Assembly (NCBI RefSeq): GCF_001469875.2
Contig: NZ_LOPW02000010.1
Location: forward strand, 717,924-781,923
Reading direction: 5' to 3'
DNA length: 64,000 bases
DNA from: Haloferax marisrubri
GTDB taxonomy: Archaea > Halobacteriota > Halobacteria > Halobacteriales > Haloferacaceae
The notes under the pieces were generated by a model that worked only from the letters and a program-made list of their open reading frames with translations, had not been told where the DNA came from and ran no database searches. Position numbers and translations under genes: made by a program. Of this stretch, positions 58,816 through 60,409 are shown piece after piece. Within the stretch, counting starts at the first letter, position 1; every line of letters begins with the position of its first letter.

Positions 58816-59229
58816 TCACCCGAGACGCTCGTCGAGAATCAGGCGGGTTTTGGTGCTCTTCACGTCGTCGTGCTCCCGGGCGCGGGTGATGAGGTCGTTG
58901 ACGGCGCGGGTGTCGGCGGCGTCGACGACGAGGACGATATCCTCCTCGCCGGAGACCTGCCAGACGAAGTCGACGTCCTTCCAGTCGGCCATCAGCTCGG
59001 ACACGTCGTTGGTGTCCACGTCGACCGCGACGGTCACCTCTATCATCGCCTTCAGGTTCCCCGTGCGGGTCGAAATGGTAAAGCGCTCGATGACGCCCTC
59101 CTCGACCAACCGCTCGACGCGGTTTCTGACGGTGCCCTCGGAGGTCCCGACTTCGGCCGCAATCTCCGTGTTGGGGGTCCGAGCGTCCCGTCGAAGGATG
59201 TCGAGGATGCGTCGGTCAAGCTCGTCCAT
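58816..59229 (-). CDS. lrp: Lrp/AsnC family transcriptional regulator
   Basis: 137 residues. N-terminal HTH MDELDRRILDILRRDARTPN to TEIAAEVGTSEGTVRNRVERL, then the RAM ligand domain ending LILDERLG. Feast/famine regulator sensing an amino acid. Divergent from carA, with a palindromic site between them; autoregulation and control of carA (glutamine-dependent) are likely. Confidence 0.93.
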   Translation of the reverse strand: MDELDRRILDILRRDARTPNTEIAAEVGTSEGTVRNRVERLVEEGVIERFTISTRTGNLKAMIEVTVAVDVDTNDVSELMADWKDVDFVWQVSGEEDIVLVVDAADTRAVNDLITRAREHDDVKSTKTRLILDERLG

Positions 59230-59260
59230 ATCTCACGTGCCGCGCCCAGCGACTTACCGA

Positions 59261-59275
59261 TTACGAATTTCGTAA
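59261..59275. promoter_or_regulatory. Lrp-type operator between lrp and carA
   Basis: Perfect dyad TTACGA, ATT, TCGTAA, 32 nt before the lrp start and 52 nt before the carA start. It has the ACGA-N3-TCGT core of the Ptr2/Lrp binding sites described in Methanocaldococcus. It sits upstream of the carA TATA (59295-59301), a position fitting activation of carA and repression of lrp. Confidence 0.65.
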
Positions 59276-59294
59276 CTCGACTTCGAAAGTAACA

Positions 59295-59301
59295 CTTATG
59301 C
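59295..59301 (+). promoter_or_regulatory. TATA box of carA
   Basis: CTTATGC centred about 29 nt before the carA ATG, leaderless spacing; same form as the asd TATA. Confidence 0.5.
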
Positions 59302-59326
59302 ACCCGTGTTCCGTTCGTTTCTCGTA

Positions 59327-60409
59327 ATGTCGGACGCCTACCTGGCGCTGGAAGACGGACGCGTGGTCGAAGCGCGTGGCCGTGTTCCGGGCCGCACACG
59401 CGGTGAACTGGTGTTCACAACCGCATATACGGGATACGAAGAGAGTCTGACCGACCCTTCGTACGAAGAACAAGTTCTCACCTTCTCGTACCCTCTCATC
59501 GGGAACTACGGCGTCCGAGCCGAGCGATTCGAGTCCGACCGGGTCCACCCTCGGGCGGCCGTCGCACGTGAGTTCACCGAGGAAGTCGTCGAGTGGCTCG
59601 CAGACGAGGGCGTCCCGGCGGTCGACCACCTCGACACGCGCGACCTCGTCACGTCCATCCGCGAGGAGGGCGCGATGAAGGTCGGAATCGCCGTCGGCGA
59701 GGACGTGACTCCCGAGGACGCGAAGGAGGAACTCGCGCAGTGCAAGGGCATGAGCGAGCACGTCGATATCGGCGCACAGGTCACCACGACCGAACTGACG
59801 ACGTACGAGGGCGACGGCGACACCACCGTCGCGCTCGTCGACTGCGGCGCGAAGGGCTCCATCGTGGACTCCCTCGTCGACCGCGGTGCGACGGTTCACG
59901 TGCTCCCCTACGACGCGGACGCCGAGGACGTGTCCGCGCTCGAACCCGACGTGCTGTTCATCTCGAACGGCCCCGGCGACCCCGAGAACTACACCGCAAC
60001 GCGCGAACTCGTCGAGGAGTTCGCCGGCGAGGTACCGCTGGCGGGCATCTGCCTCGGCCAGCAGATCGTCGCCAGCGCGCTCGGCGGCACCACCGAGAAG
60101 ATGGCTTTCGGCCACCGCGGCGTCAACCAGCCGGTCCGCGACCTCCAGACCGGCAAAGTCGTCATGACGACCCAGAACCACGGCTACACCGTCGCCGACC
60201 CCGGCGACAAACTCGACGTGACGCAGGTCAACGTCAACGACGACACCGCGGAAGGCCTCGCCAGCGAGGAACTGAGCGTCATCACGCGCCAGTACCACCC
60301 CGAAGCCCACCCCGGCCCCCACGACTCGCTCGGCTTCTTCGACGACGTGCTCGCCATGGCGGGTACAGAGGGAAACGAGCATAAGCCCCGAGTCGTCGCC
60401 TCGGACTGA
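59327..60409 (+). CDS. carA: Carbamoyl-phosphate synthase small subunit
   Basis: 360 residues from MSDAYLALEDGRVVEARGRV. N-domain GELVFTTAYTGYEESLTDPSY; amidotransferase domain with nucleophile in GICLGQQIVA, and HPEAHPGPHD. It feeds ammonia from glutamine to CarB for pyrimidine and arginine synthesis. carB is not adjacent in the window. Divergent Lrp regulator upstream. Confidence 0.96.
   Translation: MSDAYLALEDGRVVEARGRVPGRTRGELVFTTAYTGYEESLTDPSYEEQVLTFSYPLIGNYGVRAERFESDRVHPRAAVAREFTEEVVEWLADEGVPAVDHLDTRDLVTSIREEGAMKVGIAVGEDVTPEDAKEELAQCKGMSEHVDIGAQVTTTELTTYEGDGDTTVALVDCGAKGSIVDSLVDRGATVHVLPYDADAEDVSALEPDVLFISNGPGDPENYTATRELVEEFAGEVPLAGICLGQQIVASALGGTTEKMAFGHRGVNQPVRDLQTGKVVMTTQNHGYTVADPGDKLDVTQVNVNDDTAEGLASEELSVITRQYHPEAHPGPHDSLGFFDDVLAMAGTEGNEHKPRVVASD

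Follow-up and report, generated by a model that had tools for sequence, protein, structure and literature searches.

A conserved inverted repeat at the lrp, carA and carB promoters of Haloferax marisrubri as the probable operator of the adjacent Lrp-type regulator

The divergent lrp–carA region

The window, a 64,000-nucleotide (64-kb) stretch of Haloferax marisrubri DNA, contains a pair of divergent genes. The first, lrp (58816–59229, minus strand), encodes a 137-aa regulator assigned by Pfam to the Lrp/AsnC (FFRP) family, with PF13404 at 64.5 bits and PF01037 at 45.3 bits, both above the cut-off. Its nearest solved structure is P. furiosus LrpA (1i1g, E 4e-16). The second, carA (59327–60409, plus strand), encodes the small subunit of carbamoyl-phosphate synthase and carries PF00988 and PF00117. 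Between the two genes lies the main dyad, O1 (TTACGAATTTCGTAA, 59261–59275), a perfect 7+1+7 inverted repeat of the form TTACGAA-T-TTCGTAA. The perfect 15-bp dyad named at this position in a preliminary description of the DNA is borne out by the letters.

Elements of both promoters flank O1. On the lrp side, 2–3 bp from O1 and roughly 25 nt away from the start codon of lrp, CTTACC (59253–59258; GGTAAG on the minus strand, the strand of lrp) is probably a TATA-like lrp promoter element, its conserved CTT columns reaching 1.7–1.8 bits across 80 aligned promoters. O1 abuts this promoter, and binding would therefore also tune lrp. On the carA side, a TTCGAA half-site (59282–59287) corresponds to the left half-site of the +20 dyad slot and overlaps the probable BRE of carA. 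The distance between the O1 centre and TTCGAA or TACGAA is 14 bp in all but one of 81 promoters, and 13 bp in that one. CTTATG (59295–59300, plus strand), with TTAT columns of 1.4–1.7 bits, probably serves as the carA TATA element. It is followed by O3 (59314–59326), a second dyad of the form TTCG-N5-CGTA, which ends just 5' of the carA ATG, its centre 52 bp from O1. Lrp-type operators are described as imperfect inverted repeats of 13–17 bp with an AT-rich centre, arranged in phased clusters (PMC2995911). Here, the O1 dyad measures 15 bp, its centre reads AATTT/AAATT, and further dyads occur at +20 and +51/52.

Conservation was assessed in 80 relatives of lrp, all haloarchaeal, obtained from one scan of named genomes. 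In 79 of these 80 orthologous loci, carA lies divergently beside lrp, its start within about 100–180 bp; at the remaining locus, L056, no carA was found within 2.5 kb. O1 is exact at 69 of the 80 loci and present with at most two mismatches at all 80, against 1.3 expected from dinucleotide shuffles. Column information in the aligned promoters peaks at ATTACGAAwTTCGTAAC, TTCGAA, TTAT, the carA start and the lrp-side CTT. The spacing is rigid on the carA side; on the other side, O1 lies at varying distances from lrp, among them 39, 44 and 50 bp. The position between divergent genes, earlier proposed as suited to the control of both, is kept at 79 of the 80 loci.

The exact pattern TTACGA-N3-TCGTAA occurs once in the 3.9-Mb genome, at O1, against 0.024 matches expected from a zero-order model with the base composition of the window. 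It is approached with one mismatch at five places and with at most two at 52, a level reached by the reversed pattern at 13. Within the window, O1 is the sole exact match, and three places have at most two mismatches, compared with 1.08 expected from shuffles. At least one exact dyad is found in 84 of 99 genomes of the family, the reversed control in none of the 99.

The carB promoter and the spacing of sites

The carB gene lies apart from carA, at G000:C10:615495 on the same contig, about 162 kb away. In this genome, its promoter contains a tandem pair of dyads with a spacing of 20 bp, and a dyad at +51 that matches by half. In 58 carB promoters from 60 family genomes (two without a match at 1e-200 were excluded), the first dyad is present with at most two mismatches in 51 and with at most three in 55. 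When the whole 229-bp carB stretch is scanned, a dyad with at most two mismatches is found in 53 of the 58, against 0.5 expected. Genome-wide, the tandem +20 pattern with at most three mismatches occurs at 156 places, compared with 18 for its reversal; at one mismatch, it is confined to two places, carB and the GC-rich C10:395.

Among the 55 carB promoters with a first dyad, a further dyad (at most one mismatch) lies at +20 in 41 and at +51 in 42. In the carA promoters, window included, TWCG-N5-CGWA with at most one mismatch is centred on +52 in 57 cases and on +51 in another 14, together 71 of 81. A +20 dyad at the same threshold is present in just 8 of the 81, with a half-site in most. In 200 shuffles, no offset reaches a count above 3. 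After removal of near-duplicates, the +51/52 dyad is retained in 21/27 carA and 21/27 carB promoters, and the +20 dyad in 1/27 carA versus 18/27 carB promoters. These counts indicate that slots 0 and +51/52 are common to both promoters, and that slot +20 holds a whole dyad in carB but half of one in carA. Spacings of 20 and 51/52 bp would correspond to 2 and 5 helical turns, placing the sites on one helix face.

An additional element at +37, found in 36 of the 55 carB promoters, scores as high as both further dyads. It is probably promoter sequence rather than operator, which warns that part of the +51 signal may be promoter as well. The strongly conserved carB promoter segment TTTCGCCGGGCTTATTACGATG (L096 1420–1433) is a +37 element and perhaps comprises BRE and TATA.

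Loss of lrp, a split promoter and other candidate targets

A close Lrp is missing in 5 of the 99 family genomes. In G082, an assembly gap of N lies inside lrp and O1 is intact, and G012 is 56% complete, with both carA and carB unfound; neither is accepted as a loss, and only genus g4 counts as one. In its three genomes, 70–80% complete, no orthologous Lrp is found at 1e-8, except for one 31%-identical match in G051, and a NUDIX gene directly adjoins carA where lrp is expected (L308, L309, L310). No dyad is present at carA (best 4–5 mismatches) or at carB (5 mismatches) of this genus. Comparison of its carB promoters with the other carB promoters, 55/55 of which have the dyad with at most three mismatches, gives p = 3e-5 for what is one lineage, and the co-loss therefore amounts effectively to one event.

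In G014, probably Haloparvum, two copies of the lrp–carA promoter flank a stretch of about 3 kb (L142 1126–4145, G014:C20). Both copies are decayed, the lrp-side copy lacking the carA TATA and the carA-side copy lacking the lrp element. Exact O1 is kept in both, and each gene therefore seems to need it. The insert of about 3 kb holds an 827-aa ORF, read as penicillin-acylase-like, and a small ORF.

In a hand count of the family genomes, whose second batch was chosen from genomes with more than one site, 45 distinct exact dyads are distributed over lrp/carA (31), carB (11), pyrB (1) and two other places with GC-rich cores. Of the 52 near-matches in the window's own genome, 47 were compared with rough ORF calls, the carB pair being read separately; 27 of the 47 fall within ORFs by these calls, and no pathway stands out. 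The argF promoters carry the dyad in 0 of 30. An enrichment in front of amino-acid genes, offered in the preliminary description as a check by motif scan, is not seen, and a broad amino-acid regulon in this genome is not supported, given the matches within ORFs, the argF result and a single aminotransferase-like neighbour. The latter gene lies 33 bp 3' of a weak dyad, TTAAGATATTCGTTA (L015 1501–1515, G000:C5:63083–63097). The gene uraA1, which falls with carA and carB in an H. volcanii data set (PMC11899642), is rejected as a target: three PF00860 genes of the genome have no upstream dyad, the best having 4–5 mismatches.

Among the best-scoring 30 pyrB loci of 59 matching genomes, a dyad with at most two mismatches is found in six and one with three mismatches in three more, against 0.3 expected of 31. 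All of these dyads lie 110–120 bp ahead of the domain start. The pyrB of the window's own genome (L217) has no dyad, its best match showing 6 mismatches. One further locus, L128, was included for its exact dyad and is kept out of the 6/30; this dyad (2020–2034, G029:C26:150719–150733) lies before an aspartate carbamoyltransferase-like pyrB, which is followed by a pyrI-like gene.

The binder, its mode of action and related systems

In Halobacterium salinarum, Trh3 (VNG1816G) is located by ChIP at trh3, carA and carB, and its autoregulation is inferred (Ashworth 2014, PMC4177876). The window Lrp is a probable orthologue of VNG1816G, on neighbourhood and description rather than alignment. The connection with carbamoyl phosphate synthesis drawn in the preliminary description is thus supported but not new, since the trh3/carA/carB circuit was published in that study. 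The operator layout, the co-loss, the split duplicated promoter and the lineage-specific pyrB sites are additions to it. Within the literature covered, no Haloferax operator study was found for Trh3 or for an Lrp acting on carbamoyl phosphate synthetase.

From names and adjacency, HVO_2507 (Lrp), HVO_2508 (carA) and HVO_2361 (carB) of H. volcanii appear to be the counterparts of the window genes. Their RNA-seq log2 changes are −3.77/−4.45/−4.23 in Table 1 of PMC11899642, where the text describes carA and carB as up-regulated and the table as down, and −3.17/−2.56/−2.04 in Table 2 of PMC9051519. The fall comes from two CRISPR-related mutants and is left unexplained by the authors. HVO_2507 is named trh7 in PMC9051519, which clashes with the Trh3 naming. 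A carA insertion renders H. volcanii an arginine auxotroph (PMC4300041).

The favoured reading, with a rough probability of 0.78, is that O1 is the primary operator of the adjacent Lrp. This protein, the Haloferax counterpart of Trh3 in this reading, would regulate carA, carB at its distant locus, and lrp itself. It very probably binds the dyad, and these three genes would form the core of its targets. The assignment to this Lrp is supported by the conservation at 80/80 loci, the carB dyad, the co-loss and the retention of O1 by both genes after duplication. The Trh3 ChIP data agree, and the earlier proposal of an operator for a haloarchaeal Lrp is upheld on these grounds. An Lrp dimer would grip O1 tightly and nucleate further dimers at +20 and +51/52 on the same helix face. 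About 65 bp would be wrapped, taking in BRE and TATA and, in the case of carA, the start region as well. Such wrapping would keep carA and carB expression low at high levels of an end-product signal. Repression rather than activation is considered slightly better than an even bet. For Haloferax, the assignment of the binding to this protein, its cooperativity, the wrapping, the repression and the signal are all inferred.

Activation is a serious rival, with chances put clearly below even. It would have an Lrp dimer at O1, and in carB also at +20, recruit TBP and turn carA and carB on, O3 being secondary or start context. Ptr2 and Ss-LrpB recruit TBP. The archaeal Lrp review, besides phased sites and wrapping, also supports activation from a site beside the BRE, and the +20 dyad of carB ends a few bases 5' of the BRE, in that activating position (PMC2995911). 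In both RNA-seq sets, lrp, carA and carB change in the same direction, a joint movement that fits activation as well as repression. On the other side, O3, at the carA start and just 3' of the carB TATA, is an awkward activator site, and the O1–O3 spacing is fixed at 51/52 in both promoters.

Binding of the dyad by another Lrp paralogue or factor, with the neighbouring lrp incidental, is improbable. Lrp paralogues are numerous in haloarchaea, 14 of them in Hfx. mediterranei (PMC8229911), and similar motifs are given for five H. salinarum FFRPs (Plaisier 2014, PMC4236453). Such a binder is at odds with the disappearance of the carA and carB dyads from the genus that lost this lrp, with the O1 kept by lrp after parting from carA in G014, and with the Trh3 ChIP signals at trh3, carA and carB. 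A further alternative is that no dedicated protein binds the dyad, which would then be an AT-rich landmark of the promoter or a palindrome arisen by chance; it sits amid promoter elements, and haloarchaeal promoters are AT-rich islands. This is scarcely credible in view of the one exact match where 0.024 would be expected per genome, the reversed control at 0 in 99 genomes, and the lack of the dyad at argF and at the three uracil-permease-type promoters. Genome rarity, reversed control and locus conservation all contradict a chance palindrome, which is rejected.

A bolder version of the favoured reading is tentative and rather unlikely. It envisages an Lrp dedicated to carbamoyl phosphate, which wraps the promoters of carA and carB via one fixed array of three slots (0, +20, +51/52) and whose role lies in the pyrimidine branch, not the arginine branch. 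It is suggested by the pyrB dyads added in some lineages and by the 0/30 at argF. In that case, neither arginine nor lysine would be the ligand, but a pyrimidine-related or nitrogen signal; for Trh3, Arg, Gln or Lys is predicted (Plaisier 2014, PMC4236453). 

With dyads at pyrB in some lineages and none at argF, the nature of the ligand becomes open to experiment. As carA and carB have two matched promoters instead of an operon, their shared array is a clean case of separate archaeal genes staying in step. The ChIP-level link from Halobacterium is narrowed to a precise operator with fixed spacing, which is amenable to single-base mutation in the tractable Haloferax volcanii.

In the Trh3 circuit (PMC4177876), an Lrp-type gene shares its promoter with carA, conserved signals lie in that promoter, and the carB promoter is a second site of binding. 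The corresponding features here are the divergent lrp–carA pair (79/80), O1 (80/80) and the carB dyad (51/58). The text of Ashworth 2014, as far as available, gives no operator letters, with TACGA, "palindrom" and "consensus" all missing. The Ss-LrpB operator of Sulfolobus solfataricus is likewise a 15-bp palindrome with an AT-rich centre (TTGCAAAATTTGCAA), and several dimers occupy juxtaposed sites, for which one 20-bp spacing is quoted; the half-site letters are different, and the targets are porDAB and permeases (PMC4046817). Ptr2 of Methanocaldococcus jannaschii also belongs to the Lrp family and has regularly spaced sites upstream of its targets, but these are ferredoxin/rubredoxin-type genes, and Ptr2 is a demonstrated activator. 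O1 would be Ptr2-like in the motif core, ACGA-N3-TCGT, and would differ from the Ptr2 consensus in the outer bases. The glutamine-responsive Sa-Lrp is, similarly, an archaeal Lrp touching ammonia-assimilation promoters (PMC3584215). Sa-Lrp is global and architectural and recognizes AT-rich degenerate sites (PMC3584215), whereas the Haloferax Lrp is predicted to act on few targets through sharp dyads.
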